From a virus, in the IMG/VR virus record IMGVR_UViG_3300001533_000259, positions 1-26,044 of that record: DNA of 26,044 nt. One strand, 5' to 3'. The notes under the pieces are model-generated. The model saw only the letters and a list, made by a program, of their open reading frames with translations, did not search any database and was not told the DNA's origin. Every line of letters begins with the position of its first letter. The first letter of the stretch is position 1. A program made the position numbers and the translations under genes. This document shows, piece by piece, positions 13-25,890 of the stretch.

Positions 13-132
13 AGTTTATAGTTAATTTGTTGTTTTCTCTTTTGATTTTACAACAGGTCGGGGCATGACTCCCGACCTTTTAACTATAAAATCTTAGAGA
101 ACATCACTGTTGAAGGAAGTGACCACCTATAA
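13..132 (-). repeat. 120-bp direct repeat, left copy; candidate structured leader RNA
   Basis: This block matches 25517-25636 at 119 of 120 positions (the difference is at 42 versus 25546). Read leftward it starts at the expected start site of the promoter at 138-166. It holds a 7-bp GC-rich stem (GGTCGGG 56-62 with CCCGACC 71-77), an 11-bp outer inverted repeat (TTTATAGTTAA 15-25 with TTAACTATAAA 80-90) and a competing pairing (GATTTTA 44-50 with TAAAATC 87-93, extended by TTCTCT 35-40 with AGAGAA 96-101). The outer stem and the competing pairing share positions 87-90, so they cannot form together. A switch-like 5' leader is my inference. The GC stem followed by TTTT could instead act as a rightward terminator. 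Confidence 0.75.
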
Positions 133-276
133 CTAATAATATAATTAATTATTGTAATAAAATCAACAACTTTTTTAACTTTTTTAACTTTTTTGGTTAA
201 ATTATATATTCTCGGTGGAAAAATATATAAATATTATTATAAGAACAGGTCATAAATAATAACAAGGAGAATAATT
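133..276. other. Divergent control region between leftward leader and HNH gene
   Basis: This non-coding, very AT-rich stretch carries the leftward promoter (138-166), the A-tract triplet (168-194), a TATAAATA octamer at 226-233 and a CATAAATA motif at 251-258 just before the ribosome binding site AAGGAG of the HNH gene. The octamers resemble T4-type late promoter cores, but such strings are expected by chance in sequence this AT-rich. I see no gene here. Confidence 0.45.
138..194 (-). promoter_or_regulatory. Leftward sigma70-type promoter with phased A-tracts
   Basis: On the minus strand TTGATT (161-166) and TATATT (138-143) are separated by 17 bp, and the predicted start falls at about 131-132, the edge of the 120-bp repeat. 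Directly upstream of the -35, positions 168-194 are three perfect copies of AACTTTTTT, which are A-tracts spaced 9 bp apart on the leftward strand and resemble an UP element or curved DNA. The coincidence of repeat edge and start site is the best support. There is no experimental evidence. Confidence 0.5.
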
Positions 277-1044: not shown

Positions 1045-1060
1045 GACCTAATAGATATGA
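1045..1060 (+). promoter_or_regulatory. Phage late-promoter motif P1 (GACCTAATAGATATGA)
   Basis: This is one of four near-identical 16-mers in intergenic DNA, here 74 nt before the small terminase start and just after a terminator. It differs from the commonest form GACCTAATATATTTGA at two positions. No conserved -35 box lies upstream in any copy, which suggests recognition by a phage-encoded factor at a -10-like element. Confidence 0.65.
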
Positions 1061-1586: not shown

Positions 1587-2816
1587 ATGTCTACTCATCA
1601 ATTAATGCTAATGCCCGAACAAGAATCATTCATTTTGTCCAATAAACCTATTATAGCGTATATTGGCGGCATAGGTGCTGGTAAATCTTGGATAGCGTGT
1701 GTTAAAGCCGTTAAAAATGCTCTAGGAGGTCGCAATCAACTCATGGTGGGGCTAACCTTCTCTCACGCACGAGATGTCCTTCTTGACACCTTAAAGAAGG
1801 TTTTAGACCTATTCGGCTTAATTGATGGTGGTCATTATAAGATTAACAAATCCAATCTGGAAATACAGATCATCAATAACACAAAGATTTACATAAAATC
1901 TGCCGAAATAGGAGACAAATTAAGAGGTTACAATGTTGCGGATGTTTATATTGATGAGAGTGCTTATCTCAAAGATGATACTGTGTTTCGAATCCTGCTT
2001 GGACGGATGCGCGAAGTTAACGATGCACAACTGCATTTAACAACATCACCAAGAGGATACAATTGGGTGTATGACATCGCTCAACAGGATGATTGTGACT
2101 ATATTAAAGTCTCAACATTCAAAAATCCATTTCTGCCTGATAATTATATCAAGAACATGCTGAAACAATATACCCGCACATACATACAACAGGAATTGTA
2201 TGCGGACTTTGTTAACATAAGCTCTGGTCTATTCCGCGCAGAATGGATCAAAGACTTTGCGAGTAACGAACAAATCATTAAAGATTATGGTAAAGCTAAA
2301 CGTGTGAGATTTTGGGATTTTGCATTCTCGGAAGAAGAAGGAGGAGACTATTCCGCAGGTGTGCTATTAGCTAAGATAGATGATAATTATGTCATTGAGG
2401 ACATTGTGCGTGTTAAACAAAAATACACGGATCTTAGGAAAACAATTATAAAGACCGCTATACAGGACGGTAGAGATGTCCAAATAGGATTTGAACAAGC
2501 AGGACAACAAAAGGGCATCATTGATGATTTATCAACTATCCGTGAGTTGTCTTTATACACAACAAAACCATTAAAAGTGTCAAAATATGGACATAAGCTG
2601 AAAAGAATTATGCCATTAGCGAGTTTGGCTGAGAATGGACATCTATATATATCACAAGGATGTAAGAATAAAAATGAAATCAAAAACGAATGCAATGCAT
2701 TAACTATGGATGATAGTCACACAAATGATGATATGGTCGATGCGTGTGCAAGTGCTTACATTTTATTTAATAGTGCTTATAACAATGCTCAAGGACATAG
2801 AACAAACATTTATTAA
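1587..2816 (+). CDS. terL: Terminase large subunit (packaging ATPase and nuclease)
   Basis: A 409-residue motor protein that cuts concatemeric phage DNA and pumps it through the portal. The Walker A motif is GGIGAGKS (27-34), Walker B ADVYIDESA with D123-E124, and a coupling motif TTSPRG lies at 152-157. The C-terminal RNase H-like nuclease shows candidate metal ligands D244 (RFWDFA), D254, E303 and D382/D385 (HTNDDMVDACASAY). All expected elements are present and the length is normal. The ribosome binding site is weak (GGAA), so translation is probably coupled to the upstream terS gene. Confidence 0.95.
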   Translation: MSTHQLMLMPEQESFILSNKPIIAYIGGIGAGKSWIACVKAVKNALGGRNQLMVGLTFSHARDVLLDTLKKVLDLFGLIDGGHYKINKSNLEIQIINNTKIYIKSAEIGDKLRGYNVADVYIDESAYLKDDTVFRILLGRMREVNDAQLHLTTSPRGYNWVYDIAQQDDCDYIKVSTFKNPFLPDNYIKNMLKQYTRTYIQQELYADFVNISSGLFRAEWIKDFASNEQIIKDYGKAKRVRFWDFAFSEEEGGDYSAGVLLAKIDDNYVIEDIVRVKQKYTDLRKTIIKTAIQDGRDVQIGFEQAGQQKGIIDDLSTIRELSLYTTKPLKVSKYGHKLKRIMPLASLAENGHLYISQGCKNKNEIKNECNALTMDDSHTNDDMVDACASAYILFNSAYNNAQGHRTNIY

Positions 2817-2828
2817 AAGAGGTAAATT

Positions 2829-4214
2829 ATGAGTGAGACAAGGATGCCTTCGGGCATCGTAGAATATTATAACGGATGGAGAGACATCACACCAACAAAC
2901 GATAATGTTTATGAATTTGTAACGCAATCTTATAAGGGTTCGGGTGGCTATGTTGACGGAAGTTATTTGAACATTTTTGACAAAGAATCAAATCTTGATA
3001 GACGTAAGAGATTAGTTTATTACAAAAATTATATCAAAGGAATTGTGGATTCATTAATAGTTCCTGTGTTTTCAGATGAAGCTATGAGAGAAACAGATAA
3101 TGATTTATTTGAAGCATTTTTAAATAATGTGGACAATAAAGGTCATAATTTGCAGGAATTCACAAAGATAATAGTTAAATTTGCACGCATTCATGGTGTG
3201 TGTTTCAGCGTTATGGATAATTTTAGTGTGGAAGCTATACCCGATACACAACAGGAAGCTATTAATCAACGCAAATACCCATATATTTATTATCGGACTG
3301 CGGATGAAGTCTATTCTTATTCAACTAATGAATTCGATTCACTCAATACAATAGCGTTTAACGATGGTCATATTGTGGATAATGAAGGTAAAAAGATAAA
3401 AGTATATCGTTTGTGGACAGAGGACTATAGTGTTAGATTTATTAACAAAGATGGTAATGAAATAGAAATAAGTGAACGCATTTATCATGAACTCGGTTTC
3501 TTGCCTATTATAGCTACTTATATCGACATAGAATCAGGTGTACTCCCTCATCCTCCTATATATGACTTGTGTCGCATGAACTACACAGTCTATAATATGG
3601 ACAGTGAACAACGTAATCTTGAGCGTTTGTGTGCGTTTCCGACGCTCACACTCCAAACAAAAGGACACGATATCAATATGAATATTGGTGCGGATTCTCT
3701 TATCACATACGGTAGTGAGTATGATGTCAATATTGGTGAACCTTCTTGGATTAGTCCTAGTGACGCTATATTGAAGGTCATAAATGACCTGTCAAATGAA
3801 GTAGTACAGAAATTAGTAGAGGCGTCCAATGTTCTAGGTGCTACAGCTATCAATACAGGTAATAGTGCTAAATCGGGTGTGGCATTATCATACGAATTTC
3901 TTGGACAAAGCTATGCTCTTAAACAAACCGCACGCATTGCTGAGAATTATGAAAAGATGGTTGCTATCATGTTCGGGTTATTTGTAAACACACCAATAGA
4001 TTACTATGTCCACTATAACGATAACTATCAACCATCACAAGATGAATTAACTAAGAAGTTGAATGTTATTGAAAGACTCATAGATCTCAACATTTCAGAT
4101 GTAGTTACAGCTGAATTGAAGAAAGAGCTTATCAAGGATGTTGCATCATATTATAAATTCCGTGCAGATAGCATGGATTTAGTACAATCTATTGCAACTA
4201 TGGACACTTTATAA
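2829..4214 (+). CDS. Portal protein
   Basis: A 461-residue protein expected to form the dodecameric ring at the capsid vertex through which DNA passes. It follows the large terminase, as portals do. Residues 55-80 (ESNLDRRKRLVYYKNYIKGIVDSLIVPVF) match the N-terminal pattern of SPP1 gp6-like/DUF4055-type portals. The C-terminal third carries long helices (VINDLSNEVVQKLVEASN, then GVALSYEFLGQSYALKQTA) that fit the stem and crown. AGAGGT precedes the ATG. Family assignment is by pattern, not search. Confidence 0.88.
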   Translation: MSETRMPSGIVEYYNGWRDITPTNDNVYEFVTQSYKGSGGYVDGSYLNIFDKESNLDRRKRLVYYKNYIKGIVDSLIVPVFSDEAMRETDNDLFEAFLNNVDNKGHNLQEFTKIIVKFARIHGVCFSVMDNFSVEAIPDTQQEAINQRKYPYIYYRTADEVYSYSTNEFDSLNTIAFNDGHIVDNEGKKIKVYRLWTEDYSVRFINKDGNEIEISERIYHELGFLPIIATYIDIESGVLPHPPIYDLCRMNYTVYNMDSEQRNLERLCAFPTLTLQTKGHDINMNIGADSLITYGSEYDVNIGEPSWISPSDAILKVINDLSNEVVQKLVEASNVLGATAINTGNSAKSGVALSYEFLGQSYALKQTARIAENYEKMVAIMFGLFVNTPIDYYVHYNDNYQPSQDELTKKLNVIERLIDLNISDVVTAELKKELIKDVASYYKFRADSMDLVQSIATMDTL

Positions 4215-5024: not shown

Positions 5025-5040
5025 GACCTAATATATTTGA
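5025..5040 (+). promoter_or_regulatory. Phage late-promoter motif P2 (GACCTAATATATTTGA)
   Basis: The motif lies 56 nt upstream of the major capsid gene and overlaps nothing coding, starting just after the scaffold stop codon. It is identical at 15 of 16 positions to the copy at 18499 and at 15 of 16 to that at 8503. A private promoter for the most abundant virion protein makes biological sense. Confidence 0.7.
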
Positions 5041-5962: not shown

Positions 5963-5986
5963 TTGATTTAGATAACACAAAAACAT

Positions 5987-6018
5987 AAAGGGATACCTAC
6001 ATGGGCATCCCTTTTTTT
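5987..6018. terminator. Terminator after the major capsid gene
   Basis: AAAGGGAT (5987-5994) pairs with ATCCCTTT (6007-6014) and is followed by a run of T. An outer pair AACACAAAAA (5974-5983) and TTTTTGTGTT (6013-6022) extends it, and the A-run on the left arm would allow it to work in both directions. Confidence 0.85.
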
Positions 6019-6067
6019 GTGTTTTATGTAACTACAACACCTAATACAGTAGAAGGATGATAAAACT

Positions 6068-7111
6068 ATGGCTAGAAATGAAAATAAATATGTGTCATTA
6101 AGACTTGGATGGGATAAATTCATAGATAAACTATCTACTAAATCCATCAATACTAAGATAATAGATAGTGGGTGGTCGGATAAGAAACTTGAATTAGAAT
6201 TATATACATTATTAACAAAGAATAATTTTGATACAAAAGGTTTTAAATTTGTATTGGATTCCGTTAAGATAGAGCACCCAAATATGACCAAAAAGGATTT
6301 CTTCAAGAAATACATATATCAGCGTGTTAATGGTGAGAAGATAAACATATTAGACAATATTGATAATAAAGCTACATCAATTCGTATGACTAAAAGATTA
6401 AGTAGAGATATGGGTGTGTTAGAGGGTCGTGTGAAGCGTTTAAGGATGTATAAAGACAACATAACACTAAAGAGTGTAGATGGATCTATTAATGATGTAA
6501 AACGAATTATAGACACTAATAAGACAGCTGAACGACATATACGCAATAAATTAGTGGATACGAATAAAGTACTCAAGAGAAAAGATCTTACATTTGCCGA
6601 GAAGAGAAATTTACGTAGAGATATTAAAGAATTGAAACGTGAGCTTAAAGTAACACAAAAGTCTAATAAAATATTATCTAAAAAATATAATAAATTTGTT
6701 GATTCGTATACTGATATGGATGAATCACGGTTATCTAAGAATTATAATAAACTATTGGGTGATATAGAAAGCGATATTGTAAATAAACAACAAAAAGTTG
6801 TATTTGACCAAGCACTTAGAAGTTCAGCATCATATCAAATGAAGCGTGTTGCACAAACAGAATATGTAAAGAGTGTTACGGAAGGTGATGTTGAGAAATT
6901 ACTCAATAAACAAGATAATAGTGATAAGAAATTATTGGTTAAATACACACTAAGTCCTAGTCACAACATTGTTGATATATGTGATGACCATGCAAATAAG
7001 GATAGTGGGTATGGCAAGGGTGTGTATTTGTTAGATAAAGCTCCTATTCCCGTTAGTGATTCGCACCCAAATTGTAAGTGCGAATTAATATATTATGGGT
7101 TCGAGGAATAA
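6068..7111 (+). CDS. Minor head protein (Mu gpF / SPP1 gp7-like C-terminus)
   Basis: A 347-residue protein. The C-terminal segment YTLSPSHNIVDICDDHAN followed by YGKGVY and VSDSHPNCKCEL matches the conserved end of Mu F-like and SPP1 gp7-like minor head proteins, including the H-P-N-C-x-C signature. The middle (about 115-215) is highly basic and helical, compatible with DNA contact. It may be ejected with or bound near the portal. Its position after the major capsid gene, not between portal and scaffold, is unusual but occurs. AGAAGGA provides the ribosome binding site. Confidence 0.82.
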   Translation: MARNENKYVSLRLGWDKFIDKLSTKSINTKIIDSGWSDKKLELELYTLLTKNNFDTKGFKFVLDSVKIEHPNMTKKDFFKKYIYQRVNGEKINILDNIDNKATSIRMTKRLSRDMGVLEGRVKRLRMYKDNITLKSVDGSINDVKRIIDTNKTAERHIRNKLVDTNKVLKRKDLTFAEKRNLRRDIKELKRELKVTQKSNKILSKKYNKFVDSYTDMDESRLSKNYNKLLGDIESDIVNKQQKVVFDQALRSSASYQMKRVAQTEYVKSVTEGDVEKLLNKQDNSDKKLLVKYTLSPSHNIVDICDDHANKDSGYGKGVYLLDKAPIPVSDSHPNCKCELIYYGFEE

Positions 7112-7943: not shown

Positions 7944-8498
7944 ATGGCTGATAGAATAACTAATATTGAATCCGAAATAACTACAGCATTAGAAAGTATT
8001 GATAAATCAGTACAATATAGTGGATATACATTCTATACACAAACAGGAACCGTTTGTGTATATGATGAAGTATTGAGTCTTGGAAGGAACCTTATAGAGG
8101 ATACAACAGACTATAAGTCAGTGAACCATGTTGTAGAACAACAAGAATCAACAGGTATTGAGGGTCAAGAGTGGACTACAGGTCAAATTGCATACACAAA
8201 TAGAGTTGTGTATGAAATTAAATCTAAAGTTCATAATGTTGGTACGGAAAGCACAACATTATCTAATCCAAAGAATGCAATACGTATGAGAATGAATGAA
8301 TGTCTCAATGACTTATTGTATGTTTTTGGACAAAATTATCAATTAAATGGTCACGTTTCGTGGATTCGTTTTCTTGGTGCATATCGTGGATATGAGGATA
8401 TCACCAATAACCGTATTCAAAGTGGAATCTTAACTACTCAATGGGAAGTTGTATTTACTCAATCATTCAATAATCCAGATATCCCTGCGTGTGTATAA
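7944..8498 (+). CDS. Probable neck or tail terminator protein
   Basis: A 184-residue protein immediately before the tail tube gene, the usual place of the tail terminator (gpU-like) or tail-to-head joining protein. It has an N-terminal helix (ITNIESEITTALESIDKSV) followed by beta strands and ends with strands TTQWEVVFTQSF, compatible with the alpha/beta fold of those proteins. GGAGA precedes the ATG. No decisive motif is visible. Confidence 0.5.
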   Translation: MADRITNIESEITTALESIDKSVQYSGYTFYTQTGTVCVYDEVLSLGRNLIEDTTDYKSVNHVVEQQESTGIEGQEWTTGQIAYTNRVVYEIKSKVHNVGTESTTLSNPKNAIRMRMNECLNDLLYVFGQNYQLNGHVSWIRFLGAYRGYEDITNNRIQSGILTTQWEVVFTQSFNNPDIPACV

Positions 8499-8502
8499 AC
8501 TT

Positions 8503-8518
8503 GACCTAATATATATGA
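8503..8518 (+). promoter_or_regulatory. Phage late-promoter motif P3 (GACCTAATATATATGA)
   Basis: The motif lies 38 nt before the tail tube gene and begins five bases after the previous stop. It differs from GACCTAATATATTTGA at one position. Together with the terminator at 9675 it makes the tail tube gene a self-contained unit, as for the capsid gene. Confidence 0.7.
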
Positions 8519-8555: not shown

Positions 8556-9650
8556 ATGGCGTTTTTAAAAAGCTCGGAACTTTTCACTTATGTTATGGAA
8601 ACAGATGTGGGAGAATTCAACGCTTCTGTTTCTGCTACTGATATTGATATCAGACTTCGTGAAATGGATTGGACAAACGAAATTGAAAGAGATAACGAAT
8701 CAAGTGAATATATGACAGGAACTTGGTTTGGTAGTGACGAATCAATTGTTGGAAAAAAGATTATTAATGCATCATATTCGCTTAAAGTAGCTCCTGGTGA
8801 GTTTATTGCAAGTGATACAAATGCTATACACAAACTCAATTACTCAGATTTACTTCATAACTGTGGTCTTACAGAACTTGCATTATCTGCAACAGGTAGT
8901 GATAACACTCCTGCTTTATATGCATTCTATCCTGAACAAAACAATGCACAAAACACTATGAGTGTTGCTAGTATAATGTATGATGCGGAATCTGACACAT
9001 ATCAGATTGCACAGGGTGCTGGATGTATGTCTAACTTCTCTATTGCAGCTGAAGGTACTGCTATGCCTTTCACTATCTCATTCGATACACAAGGTCGTTC
9101 CGAGGGTGTTGTTGAAGCTGATGGATCTGATGATGTAGCTGAACTTGATGAAGCTAGTATTATGAGAACCGTTGCAGATTCAATGCGTAACACAATTATT
9201 AAAATAACTGATCTTGAAACTCAAGATGAAGTTGAATTTTGTGTTACATCAATCACAATGGAAAGTGGTAACGAACTCAATCAAATTGAGTGTCAGGCTA
9301 CCGAATCGGGTCTTGATTCTTTTATCATTACTAAAATCAATCCTTCTATCGTAATCGATCCATTGCTTAAATCCCTTAGTGACTTCGATTGGTGGAATGC
9401 AGTATCTACTGAAAGATTCTACAAACTTGAAATTGATTCTGAATATGTACATATCTTTGTACCTAGAGCACAGATCAATAGTAATAGTATTGGCGAATCT
9501 AATGGATTTATGCGTAATGAACTTACATTTAGACCACTTATCAATATTGATGGTGACGCTCCTACTTGGATTCCAAGTGGTAATGCTCCTTCTAATGTTA
9601 CAGAAATCCCTTATTTTCTTGGAATAGAGGAGAGATCCCCTCAATATTAA
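8556..9650 (+). CDS. Major tail tube protein
   Basis: A 364-residue protein predicted to polymerise into the tail tube. It has the typical mixture of beta strands with a central acidic stretch (EVEFCVTSITMESGNELNQIECQA) and sits between the connector genes and the tail assembly chaperone. It has its own promoter motif upstream and a strong UUCG terminator downstream, the same arrangement as the capsid gene, which fits the second most abundant virion protein. At 364 residues it is longer than many tube proteins and could carry an extra surface domain in the C-terminal third. I found no sheath gene. Confidence 0.8.
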   Translation: MAFLKSSELFTYVMETDVGEFNASVSATDIDIRLREMDWTNEIERDNESSEYMTGTWFGSDESIVGKKIINASYSLKVAPGEFIASDTNAIHKLNYSDLLHNCGLTELALSATGSDNTPALYAFYPEQNNAQNTMSVASIMYDAESDTYQIAQGAGCMSNFSIAAEGTAMPFTISFDTQGRSEGVVEADGSDDVAELDEASIMRTVADSMRNTIIKITDLETQDEVEFCVTSITMESGNELNQIECQATESGLDSFIITKINPSIVIDPLLKSLSDFDWWNAVSTERFYKLEIDSEYVHIFVPRAQINSNSIGESNGFMRNELTFRPLINIDGDAPTWIPSGNAPSNVTEIPYFLGIEERSPQY

Positions 9651-9674
9651 AAACATTTACCATAATGATTAAAT

Positions 9675-9706
9675 AAAGACTCTTCTTCGGAAGGGTCTTT
9701 TTTTAT
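9675..9706 (+). terminator. Strong UUCG terminator after the tail tube gene
   Basis: An 11-bp stem (AAAGACTCTTC 9675-9685, GAAGGGTCTTT 9690-9700, one G-T wobble) closes on the stable tetraloop TTCG and runs into T residues. It stops tail-tube transcripts before the regulatory genes that follow. Confidence 0.9.
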
Positions 9707-9748
9707 AGGGGAGAATATATAAATATGTATATACGGAGAGGAGTGCTA

Positions 9749-10177
9749 ATGGCTGAAAAGAAGAAAAAGACATATAAGTCCCCTGAAGAAATAATAGCAA
9801 GTCCATTATCACAATTAGCATTGAAATTCAAATATGAGACTAATAATAGAAAAAGAGACGCGCTATTCCTAAAAATTGCAGAACATTATATGCCGAAAAT
9901 AAAATCATATCTTATAAATGTACAACAACACAATATAGATGAATTCATACAAATATATTATATAGAAGTTTATAATGCATTACGGGCATGGAAACAAGCT
10001 AGTAATTTTGAAACATATCTATATATGTATATCAAAGCTGTGTATAGAAAGTTTATGAACAATATTAAAATATTTAAGAAGGATATAGATTATTGTTTTA
10101 TTTCGGAGTTGTCGGAAGATGAGGAACCGACATATGAAAATTTAGAGTTGTTCTATGATGCGAATATGACCGAATAG
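9749..10177 (+). CDS. Sigma-70 region 2-like protein, candidate late sigma factor
   Basis: A 142-residue protein; I take the ATG at 9749 because GAGGAG at 9738-9743 lies 5 nt before it. Residues 36-72 (RDALFLKIAEHYMPKIKSYL... then NIDEFIQIYYIEVYNALRAW) resemble sigma region 2.1-2.2, with D64-E65-F66-I67-Q68 in place of the core-binding D-(D/E)-hydrophobic-hydrophobic-Q signature. FETYLYMYIKAVYRKFMN (87-104) resembles region 2.3-2.4, which melts and reads the -10 element. No region 4 follows, so it would be a -10-only factor like T4 gp55. It sits oddly between tail tube and tail chaperone genes. A non-sigma helical protein remains possible. Confidence 0.6.
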   Translation: MAEKKKKTYKSPEEIIASPLSQLALKFKYETNNRKRDALFLKIAEHYMPKIKSYLINVQQHNIDEFIQIYYIEVYNALRAWKQASNFETYLYMYIKAVYRKFMNNIKIFKKDIDYCFISELSEDEEPTYENLELFYDANMTE

Positions 10178-10190
10178 GAGGGTTGGTTTA

Positions 10191-10403
10191 ATGAATAATA
10201 AAATAGAAATCACATTTGAATTATATTCAAGATTTAATAGCTTACGAGGGATCGATACACACACCAAATTCTTTGAGAAACTACTTGATGTATACCAAGA
10301 GTCCCTTAAACCAAAACAATCGATTGTAGAGGCTAATATGGGACCTAATAAAGATATAGTAAAACGAAAGCGTAATTCTAAAAAGGAGAATAGCAATGGC
10401 TAA
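10191..10403 (+). CDS. Hypothetical 70-residue protein after the sigma-like gene
   Basis: I do not recognise it. An excellent AGGAGGGT lies 8 nt before the ATG, and the gene overlaps the next ORF by 8 bp. The first half is helical (YSRFNSLRGIDTHTKFFEKLLDVYQ) and the last 25 residues are basic and disordered (KRKRNSKKENSNG). Being co-transcribed with the sigma-like gene, it may be a partner such as a co-activator, but that is inference from position alone. Confidence 0.6.
   Translation: MNNKIEITFELYSRFNSLRGIDTHTKFFEKLLDVYQESLKPKQSIVEANMGPNKDIVKRKRNSKKENSNG
10342..10350 (+). promoter_or_regulatory. Possible weak late-promoter core (GACCTAATA)
   Basis: The 9-bp core of the late-promoter motif recurs exactly here, inside the 70-residue gene and 46 nt before the tail assembly chaperone start. 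The downstream half is not conserved. A similar partial match (GCCTAAT, about 11248) precedes the tape measure gene. Both are weak. Confidence 0.25.
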
Positions 10404-10791
10404 AAGAAAAACTGAAGTGAAGATGACACCCGAAATTCTTGCAAAACTTAGAGGTGTGTCTGTTGTATCCGACACTATTGAATATGTTCATGAAATTGAA
10501 GATGTGCCATCTGAATTTCATCCCGTATTCACACTTAAATCATTCACCGTTTCAGATTCTCGTAAATTCAAAGAAGTATCAAAAAACGAAGAAGATTTAG
10601 ATGAAGTATTTGAAGATGTTCTCCGTACACACCTTGTTGGTTGGAAAAATCTTTATGATTTATCAACAGGAGAACCATTTGAATTTGTTGAGGATCCCGA
10701 TGGTGGTGCTGATAAGGATGCATATTATGCATTACCTCTTGGTTTAAGAGCACATATCCTTGGATTTCTACACTCACTATCTGGTATGTAA
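10396..10791 (+). CDS. Tail assembly chaperone
   Basis: A 131-residue protein in the classical gpG position ahead of the tape measure gene. The segment FHPVFTLKSFTVSDSRKFKEVS is the typical opening of phage tail assembly chaperones, followed by an acidic helical part and a C-terminal ALPLGLRAHILGFLHSLS. It should coat the tape measure protein during tube polymerisation. In many phages a -1 frameshift fuses it to the next frame, but here the -1 frame meets a stop at 10803 and a hairpin lies between, so the two are separate. AAGGAG at 10383-10388 serves the ATG. Confidence 0.75.
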   Translation: MAKRKTEVKMTPEILAKLRGVSVVSDTIEYVHEIEDVPSEFHPVFTLKSFTVSDSRKFKEVSKNEEDLDEVFEDVLRTHLVGWKNLYDLSTGEPFEFVEDPDGGADKDAYYALPLGLRAHILGFLHSLSGM

Positions 10792-18498: not shown

Positions 18499-18514
18499 TA
18501 CCTAATATATTTGA
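18499..18514 (+). promoter_or_regulatory. Phage late-promoter motif P4 (TACCTAATATATTTGA)
   Basis: The motif lies 31 nt before the first fibre gene in the only sizeable gap of the tail-tip region. It differs from the capsid copy only in its first base. It would boost fibre transcription independently of the long tail operon. Confidence 0.65.
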
Positions 18515-24006: not shown

Positions 24007-25392
24007 TTATGACACTCGTGATTGAACACCGAAATCTTGTGCCACTTCGTTCATTATGGTTATAATTTTTTTATCATCATTTCCATATAGAGCATCGTAC
24101 ACATAGATGCATAAATCGTTTTCATTTAACCTAGTCATAACTTCCTTCATCATGTCAACTTCTATTTTAAATAGCTTTCTTGATGTTACATAATGTCCAT
24201 GTGATTCTTTATCAGCAACTATGTTGCTCATCATAATAGGTGCTACTTCCCAATAATAATTCCATAATTCCATAATTTTCATGGATTCAATTCGTTTGTT
24301 GAAGAACGAAAGATGTTCTTTTTTAATGATATTGCGGGAAATCCCCGTAATATTTGACACATTAGTATGCACATCTCCTCCCAGTAAGGTTTTTTCTTGT
24401 TCAGAACCATACAATGATAAACAAATGTTTGGGTGTAAACTAGAATAGTCATATTCTTGTAATGGTTTATTATCTATTTTAATCAATCCACGAATCCATG
24501 ACGGCATAAGTGTGTAGGAATCTACAATTCGTCCTCCACTTCTATGATCACCAATGATAGGAATAATGTTACCACCTTTAGTTAATAGTTCAAACTTCTT
24601 AATGTTGTCCTCTACTAGAGAATATTTTCCAGACTTAAAATATGACGTTTTGTGTTTATTCTTAAACTTTAATATCTTTCCGTTCTTGAGAACTGTTCCT
24701 TCATTCGCTTTAGCCCATTCCAATAATTCTTTCTTTGATGGTAATTTTAAGTAACTGTAGGTATAAACAATGCGTTGGACAATTGGATGCGTGATTACTT
24801 TACTTATAGCTTTATAATGTAGATTAAGATAGGATTCTTTACCTTTATCTGTTTTGAGTGGATAATTATTCCAACCTTTACCATAGTATGCAGCACTGAA
24901 CCGATAGCCAAGAGCCTTACCATTATCACCATTCTCATCAGATTTACGATACACATTATCACATTCAATAATTGGTCCATTCTTTTTAGTTCCCTTTAAA
25001 AGAATATCAACAACTCGTTTATAGCCCTTAGCACCATCACCAAAGACTTCTTTGAGTTTAGACGAGTGGATGTAGGTGTACGGTCTTTCGGTGCTCTCTA
25101 ATGTGTCTATTTCGAGCTCACGATCGAACTCACGATATTGGGTGATCATAGATGCAAAGATCATTGCTTTATCAATTGCTTGTGGTTTAGTTCCAGCCTT
25201 CATCAATATTGTCATTGGTGCATGATTATAAAGTGTTCGATAAATCTTCTTAGGCGTGATTATCGTGGTTCCAAATTTGTTTAAAAACTCGGTTTCTGAT
25301 AGAGGGACATGCGGTAAAAAATGCTCATCGTGATTAAGCTCTATCCCACTACTGTATTGGGATAGAGCGTGATATGGTGTTGTTATTATCAC
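24007..25392 (-). CDS. Polymerase-like protein of the TV-Pol / family A / T7-RNAP group
   Basis: A 461-residue leftward protein. Motif A is LQEYDYSSLHPNICLSLYG with D315; a motif B-like helix ISRNIIKKEHLSFFNKR has R353, K357/K358 and F363-F364-N365; motif C is CIYVYDALYGND with D433. Before motif A lies GGRIVDSYTLMPSWIRGLIK, a lead-in I associate with the transposon-virus polymerases (TV-Pol) related to superfamily A DNA polymerases and T7-like RNA polymerases. No 3'-5' exonuclease motif is visible. It may replicate the phage, prime DNA or transcribe. The start is a GTG without a clear ribosome binding site, inside an overlapping leader ORF, so the true N-terminus is uncertain. Confidence 0.65.
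   Translation of the reverse strand: MIITTPYHALSQYSSGIELNHDEHFLPHVPLSETEFLNKFGTTIITPKKIYRTLYNHAPMTILMKAGTKPQAIDKAMIFASMITQYREFDRELEIDTLESTERPYTYIHSSKLKEVFGDGAKGYKRVVDILLKGTKKNGPIIECDNVYRKSDENGDNGKALGYRFSAAYYGKGWNNYPLKTDKGKESYLNLHYKAISKVITHPIVQRIVYTYSYLKLPSKKELLEWAKANEGTVLKNGKILKFKNKHKTSYFKSGKYSLVEDNIKKFELLTKGGNIIPIIGDHRSGGRIVDSYTLMPSWIRGLIKIDNKPLQEYDYSSLHPNICLSLYGSEQEKTLLGGDVHTNVSNITGISRNIIKKEHLSFFNKRIESMKIMELWNYYWEVAPIMMSNIVADKESHGHYVTSRKLFKIEVDMMKEVMTRLNENDLCIYVYDALYGNDDKKIITIMNEVAQDFGVQSRVS
25338..25368. repeat. Inverted arms around an 11-nt loop, orientation 1
   Basis: GCTCTATCCC (25338-25347) and GGGATAGAGC (25359-25368) are perfect 10-bp inverted arms around ACTACTGTATT. In the duplicate at 25855-25890 the loop reads AATACAGTAGT, its exact reverse complement. 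The segment lies in the 5' part of the polymerase frame (about codons 9-18). Confidence 0.85.
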
Positions 25393-25516: not shown

Positions 25517-25636
25517 AGTTTATAGTTAATTTGTTGTTTTCTCTTCTGATTTTACAACAGGTCGGGGCATGACTCCCGACCTTTTAACTATAAAATCTTA
25601 GAGAACATCACTGTTGAAGGAAGTGACCACCTATAA
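25517..25636 (-). repeat. 120-bp direct repeat, right copy; candidate structured leader
   Basis: It matches 13-132 with one substitution (25546). Read leftward it begins next to a promoter-like sequence (25644-25673) and ends immediately before copy R1 of the 49-bp element, so it would form the 5' untranslated leader of the polymerase transcript. All stems described for the left copy are kept. Confidence 0.75.
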
Positions 25637-25643
25637 ATATATT

Positions 25644-25758: not shown

Positions 25759-25890
25759 TCATCTTCTTAGGCGTGATTATCGTGGTTCCAAACTTGTTTA
25801 AAAACTCGGTTTCTGATAGAGGGACATGCGGTAAAAAATGCTCATCGTGATTAAGCTCTATCCCATCCCAATACAGTAGTGGAATAGAGC
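25754..25890 (-). pseudogene. Truncated duplicate of the polymerase 5' end
   Basis: In the frame of the intact gene it reads IELNHDEHFLPHVP followed by LSETEFLNKFGTTIITPKK, identical to residues 17-49 of the polymerase, then MK and a stop where it meets element R2. Upstream the frame is broken by the inverted loop, a 2-bp insertion and stop codons, and there is no start. It is a dead fragment left by tandem duplication or template switching. Confidence 0.85.
25855..25890. repeat. Inverted arms around an 11-nt loop, orientation 2
   Basis: GCTCTATCCC (25855-25864) and GGAATAGAGC (25881-25890, one mismatch) flank an extra ATCCC and the loop AATACAGTAGT, the reverse complement of the loop at 25348-25358. 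The extra ATCCC repeats the end of the left arm. Confidence 0.8.

Follow-up and report, generated by a model that had tools for sequence, protein, structure and literature searches.

A predicted sigma factor reduced to region 2 and putative late promoters without a −35 element in a siphophage

The window, by which we mean the whole 26,044-base IMG/VR virus record that was analysed, carries the late region of a siphophage on the + strand (Table 1); late genes lacking a match were named from their position and their synteny with relatives. Between the gene for the tail-tube protein and a gene resembling a tail chaperone lies an ORF for a 142-aa protein with its own Shine-Dalgarno-like sequence. 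An intrinsic terminator precedes it, with 11 pairs at 9675-9700 followed by a T run (−13.8 kcal/mol, z −4.4), and the strong terminator that the initial annotation had placed 5′ of this gene is thus real. Strong terminators follow both the capsid gene (5985-6053) and the tail-tube gene, a weaker copy of the late motif described below coming after the capsid one, an arrangement which suggests that each of these high-copy proteins forms its own transcription unit. Near-identical direct repeats mark both ends of the window (13-135 vs 25517-25639; 123 nt, 98%), and further repeats lie around the start of a minus-strand gene (25244-25348 and 25761-25865; 25444, 25686 and 25956); they may reflect terminal redundancy, an origin-like region present in several copies, or an error of assembly. 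The 461-aa protein encoded on the minus strand at 24007-25392 contains DYSSLHPNI and YDALYG, which look like stretches of DNA polymerases, but it matched no family in Pfam or NCBIfam and gave no tblastn hit in phages.

Table 1. Features of the window discussed in the text (single numbers are gene starts)
Feature	Coordinates	Strand	Remarks
Late motif ACCTAATAGATATGA	1046-1060	+	Upstream of putative TerS gene; 1 mismatch to ACCTAATATATWTGA
Putative TerS gene	1107	+	
TerL gene	1587	+	
Portal gene	2829	+	
Scaffold gene	4302	+	
Late motif ACCTAATATATTTGA	5026-5040	+	Upstream of major capsid gene
Major capsid gene	5096	+	
Probable weaker motif ACCTAATACAGTAGA	6039-6053	+	After capsid-gene terminator (from its predicted fold), upstream of head-morphogenesis gene; rank 6 among all window positions
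Head-morphogenesis gene	6068	+	
Late motif ACCTAATATATATGA	8504-8518	+	Upstream of major tail (tube) gene
Major tail (tube) protein candidate	8556-9650	+	Left neighbour; 41% identical and syntenic in L006
Intrinsic terminator	9675-9708	+	Between tail-tube gene and sigma gene
Shine-Dalgarno-like GGAGAGGAG	9735-9743	+	Of sigma gene; from sequence
Predicted sigma gene CDS	9749-10177	+	142 aa plus stop; region-2-only sigma factor
Sigma region 2 domain (regions 2.1-2.4)	9791-10090	+	Residues about 15-114; from HMM, structure matches and hhalign
C-terminal tail NLELFYDANMTE	10139-10174	+	Last 12 residues; low-confidence model
70-aa ORF	10191-10403	+	Next to sigma gene; no family match; absent in L006
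Weak candidate motif	10343-10357	+	Upstream of 131-aa chaperone-like gene; same place as L006 motif (7990); rank 25, statistically unremarkable
131-aa tail-chaperone-like gene	10396-10791	+	Right neighbour; from position and size; counterpart of L006 8054-8476
Chaperone-like gene	10851	+	
Tape-measure gene	11296	+	
Late motif ACCTAATATATTTGA	18500-18514	+	Upstream of fibre-like gene
Fibre-like gene	18545	+	
Further tail and fibre-like genes		+	

Sequence profile searches with the 142-aa protein as query recovered named matches that were sigma families throughout. NCBIfam TIGR02937, a two-domain model of 165 positions, was matched by residues 42-117 only at model positions 5-82 (E=8.1e-6), and Pfam Sigma70_r2 was recovered with E=2.7e-4 (21.1 bits vs a cut-off of 24), both scores lying under the curated cut-offs; PRK12518 (E 3.2e-5) and PHROG 351 (E 0.046) were also matched. 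As a yardstick, T4 gp55 reaches Sigma70_r2 at E=0.087 only and matches nothing in NCBIfam. A comparison with hhalign to four sigmas from one Selenomonadales genome and one from a phage (L028) gave Prob 93 and E 3e-7 over 81 region 2 columns, and a two-row profile run against PDB sequences retrieved sigmas in 11 of 11 matches, all of them weak (E 0.07-1.4). Aligned to host and phage sigmas, the DEFIQ stretch (residues 64-68) falls on region 2.2 and FETYLYMYIKAVY (residues 87-99) on regions 2.3-2.4, where the aromatics of FxTYxxxYIK are kept. The core-binding face is partly conserved: D64, E65 and Q68 are present, whereas the glutamate that follows the Q in primary sigmas and the next asparagine are not.

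Predicted structures point the same way. A single-sequence AlphaFold model (pLDDT about 80 at residues 21-40, 56 overall) yielded weak E-values in Foldseek searches of the PDB (0.2-3), sigma-E region 2 on −10 DNA being among the very top matches; upon realignment to the PDB all matches with Z>5 were sigma factors, ECF region 2 leading with a best Z of 9.0, as against 4.8 for the best non-sigma match. Adding a relative from another phage (L022, below) raised the confidence: the two-sequence model had block pLDDT values of 65-86 across residues 21-100. Its best Z rose to 10.4, sigmas filled the first 41 places of the list, and the first non-sigma entry scored 4.2. The matches to PDB sigmas span residues 11-114, and the model is of low confidence beyond residue 105. 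Helical bundles may score by chance; so wide a gap between sigma and non-sigma Z-scores is not expected by chance. A search of a viral structure library gave no significant match, with some phage sigmas among the top ones.

No region 3 or region 4 family was found in the protein at E<=10 in the Pfam and NCBIfam profile searches. A tail of roughly 37 residues closes the ORF, in which the helix-turn-helix-bearing region 4 of a complete (ECF) sigma was not detected; a region 4 reached through a downstream frame change was considered and dropped, since no HTH-like reading is visible by eye in the other frames downstream of the ORF. The other window proteins that were scanned have no sigma match and no convincing match to a DNA-binding regulator. 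Profiles and predicted fold together confirm the 142-aa protein as a sigma-70-family region 2 domain with no region 4 detected. The reduced sigma of the initial annotation, with DEFIQ in region 2.2, a 2.3-2.4 stretch and no region 4, is hence borne out by HMMs, alignment and fold, including by the AlphaFold comparison with sigma region 2 that it had proposed.

In its last 12 residues, NLELFYDANMTE, the protein resembles both the C-terminus of gp55, SLDFLYEAND (NLELFYDAN vs SLDFLYEAN), which is the clamp-binding epitope of that protein, and the bacterial clamp motif QL[SD]LF. The likeness to gp55 is the best among 83 ORF tails of the window and is equalled in 93/20000 and 38/3000 shuffles (0.5-1.3%), in a test picked after the sequence had been seen. 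The same tail aligns equally well with the region 4.1 helix of one host sigma (15/3000, 0.5%), a higher-scoring match to the gp55 tail sits at residue 24 of the protein and not at its C-terminus, and the sigma-like protein of L022 is without the NLELF tail. From its sequence the tail could be either a clamp-binding-like peptide or a region 4.1 stub, which we offer as a lead and not as a result. That a gp55-like late system evolved independently here, with the NLELF tail of a region-2-only sigma binding the host beta clamp and coupling late transcription to replication outside the T4 family, strikes us as a long shot.

The second component is a late motif with the consensus ACCTAATATATWTGA, present in four strong copies, all on the + strand and 44-70 nt upstream of late genes (Table 1). 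A 13-15-mer with at most one mismatch is common to 4 of 24 upstream regions, which none of 100 dinucleotide shuffles reached, and in leave-one-out searches of both strands the other three sites recovered each site among the top four places. There are no strong copies on the minus strand or in minus-strand genes. From −50 to +40 around the motif we found no second conserved block that could serve as a −35 element, and one isolated T at −13. Coarse k-mer tests that tolerate many mismatches did not reach significance, owing to the AT-richness of the DNA, and only the near-exact word tests are decisive for the motif. Copies entertained at 10343 and 11248 are unsupported, with weight-matrix ranks of 25 and 109. 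Shared by four upstream regions, unmatched in shuffles and free of a −35, the −35-less motif that had been reported, without its sequence, alongside the sigma in the same phage is therefore real.

Relatives of the window were found through the portal only; IMG/VR scans with TerL and the tail tube gave nothing. One of them, L006 (portal 39%, tail tube 41% identical), retains the order portal, tail tube, chaperone-like gene, the last two only 147 bases apart, and this gap contains a terminator (7945-7985, −17.3 kcal/mol) and the phage's own motif (7990). In the window, the sigma gene and the 70-aa ORF sit after the terminator that corresponds to the one of L006. Because L006 has its tail and chaperone genes adjacent, we take the sigma gene to be part of an inserted cassette: on this sequence comparison, it is a two-gene unit (142 aa + 70 aa) placed between the tail-tube terminator and the chaperone-like gene, and absent there in L006. 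The earlier picture of a gene hidden inside the tail operon is right in that it lies between tail genes, and is better replaced by that of such a cassette behind the tail-tube terminator. The 70-aa product, starting with MNNKIEITFELYSRFNSLRGIDTHTKFFEKLLDVYQESL, has a strand-helix-helix look like that of ribbon-helix-helix proteins, with no HMM support.

A whole-record search of the portal relatives detected sigma region 2 in L022 and L028 only. The 182-aa protein of L028 was rejected as a region-2-only form, being an ordinary small sigma that matches nearly the whole two-domain profile. In L022 (IMG/VR 3300007536_000006; 14.3 kb, portal 34%), positions 150-629 code for a 159-aa protein which the 142-aa protein matches at E 3.5e-5 in that record (26% identity across 72 residues); it matched 17 NCBIfam models, nearly all of them for sigma factors and practically all confined to its region 2, and shares FxTYxxxYIKxxxRK with the window protein. 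Its gene lies upstream of TerS/TerL, outside the tail region. With this second protein from L022, the group has at least two small region-2-only sigmas, each at its own locus. An IMG/VR scan with both sequences gave no third family member, and no close homologue of the 142-aa protein emerged from a protein scan of IMG/VR or from tblastn against phages and plasmids. Elsewhere in L022, a stretch of 1.15 kb without ORFs and with no Rfam match separates two chaperone-like genes (9129-10283; 59 bases in the window), and a gene for tRNA-Asn (GTT) is embedded in the head-gene region (6279-6353). The terminases of L006 (2-1216) and a further relative, L021 (562-1938), are of a type visibly different from those of the window (1587-2816) and L022, while portal, capsid and tail are related; this difference is a packaging module exchange.

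The relatives have motifs of their own. That of L006, TTCCTTTATATRTAGA, occurs at 3720, 4473, 6754 and 7990 (0.35 expected; 0 of 200 shuffles reach four), in L021 the same type precedes TerS (186) and the capsid gene (4165), and that of L022, GCATAATCYWATAAAGG, occurs at 4173, 7619 and 10260 (0.18 expected); the L006 and L022 consensus patterns were read from the very sequences in which they were counted, so both expected counts are optimistic. As L006/L021 and L022 have their own AT-rich motifs at the same late genes, a phage-specific late promoter seems to be general in the group, and such group-specific, AT-rich, −35-less elements would fit a phage-specific factor and its motif changing together. 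Both L006 and L021 carry the motif, and no sigma gene was found in their 6-9 kb, which counts against the pairing of motif and sigma but, these records being fragments, not decisively.

The presence of the motif without a sigma gene in the L006 fragment bears on a different explanation, namely that the motif belongs to a class of host promoters, for instance TAnnTTTG of Bacteroidota or a −10-only host promoter, the sigma-like protein acting elsewhere or being a recently acquired passenger. TAnnTTTG is a Bacteroidota promoter type, and TATATTTG, within two of the strong copies, fits it; the sigma locus of the window is, moreover, common to neither L006 nor L022. However, the motifs of L006 and L022 do not fit TAnnTTTG, and most window genes have strong Shine-Dalgarno sequences, which are unusual in Bacteroidota phages. 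An exact motif search across IMG/VR returned single background matches only, once per record, so the motif is not a widespread host promoter. We hold this explanation to be very unlikely.

In established sigma biology, region 2 binds to the β′ clamp helices and uses its 2.3-2.4 face to capture the −10 element and melt it. By analogy, the 142-aa protein would attach to these helices in the core RNA polymerase of the host, and the face formed by its regions 2.3-2.4, FETYLYMYIKAVYRK, would melt and read the −10-like ACCTAATATATWTGA element, so that the late promoters would need no −35 contact. A late specificity factor for ACCTAATATATWTGA is the simplest reading of the protein, although the motif could be read instead by a host factor or another phage factor. 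Overall, we favour, at a probability of about 0.62, a reduced sigma-70-family factor, consisting of region 2 only, that directs host RNA polymerase to the ACCTAATATATWTGA late promoters.

Phage proteins that bind RNA polymerase and block sigma are common, and the 142-aa protein might similarly act in host takeover, binding the β′ clamp helices and displacing the host sigma so as to stop host or early transcription without reading promoters. Such a competitor is quite unlikely in our estimate: a mere core-binding plug would not need the FxTYxxxYIK aromatics kept in both phage proteins, and some factor has to read the −35-less motif of the same phage, even though sigma2 is the part of a sigma chiefly responsible for binding core (PMC2988020). 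Alternatively, the sigma could be split, with the 142-aa protein giving region 2 and the 70-aa product, or a gp33- or SigO-like partner encoded elsewhere, giving the flap or upstream contact. There are precedents in RsoA (sigma2) with SigO (sigma4) of B. subtilis (PMC8103513) and in gp55 with gp33 of T4 (PMC2988020), and the 70-aa gene lies directly downstream of the sigma gene, both being absent in L006; but neither a sigma4 nor an HTH match was found in the 70-aa, 131-aa and 133-aa neighbours, and the sigma-like gene of L022 lacks such a neighbour, which leaves a split factor unlikely.

Returning to the favoured late specificity factor, its expression probably differs from the positive feedback loop previously suggested. 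That loop is unsupported: the best motif score within 9651-9748 is −1.3, beaten by 683 window places, and the terminator at 9675-9700 separates the sigma gene from the nearest upstream motif (8504), so that late self-activation would need read-through of the terminator. With the gene behind a terminator, equipped with its own ribosome-binding site and devoid of a late motif, expression ahead of late transcription, from a separate transcript driven by the host sigma, appears more likely than self-driven expression. Such an early transcript would also be sensible, since late promoters can fire only once the factor is present; we identified no clear host-type promoter upstream of the gene.

Among known systems, T4 gp55 establishes that region 2 can be enough for basal initiation, which the sliding clamp activates via gp33 and a C-terminal peptide (PMC2988020, PMC7892883). 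Both gp55 (structure 7d7c) and the 142-aa protein have sigma homology in region 2 only (PMC2988020, PMC7892883), with flanking ends predicted to be disordered and a short hydrophobic-acidic C-terminus, and both phages have late promoters without a −35, those proposed for the window carrying ACCTAATATATWTGA. The window protein is shorter (142 vs 185 aa) and, by profile scores, much nearer to cellular sigmas than gp55 is; neither a T4-type clamp nor gp33 was recognised in the 26 kb of the window. Homology to gp55 was rejected, as BLAST found no region 2 match and hhalign gave Prob 0.6%; gp55 is also missing from the fold matches listed, though that proves nothing. The parallel with gp55 drawn by the initial annotation accordingly holds for region 2 as the sole sigma domain and fails for sequence: given the profile comparison probability of 0.6%, gp55 is an analogue by architecture and not a detectable homologue. 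RsoA of B. subtilis is likewise a stand-alone sigma2 protein; unlike the phage gene, which adjoins no recognisable sigma4 gene, it is cellular and works with SigO from the same operon (PMC8103513). ECF sigmas (E. coli sigma-E, SigW) provide the best sequence and fold matches for the region 2 but have a region 4, of which none was detected here. The 159-aa protein of L022 is region-2-only like that of the window, with a longer C-terminus, another locus and a different late motif in its phage. This second region-2-only protein, the group-wide late motifs and the sigma gene as an inserted cassette are the new elements of the present analysis. If the favoured reading is true, the group would offer a minimal system in which to ask how a lone region 2 chooses and opens promoters, and whether late transcription ties to replication outside T4, and the pairing of a cellular-like region-2-only sigma with −10-only promoters in unrelated small phages would mean that the solution seen in gp55 arose more than once.
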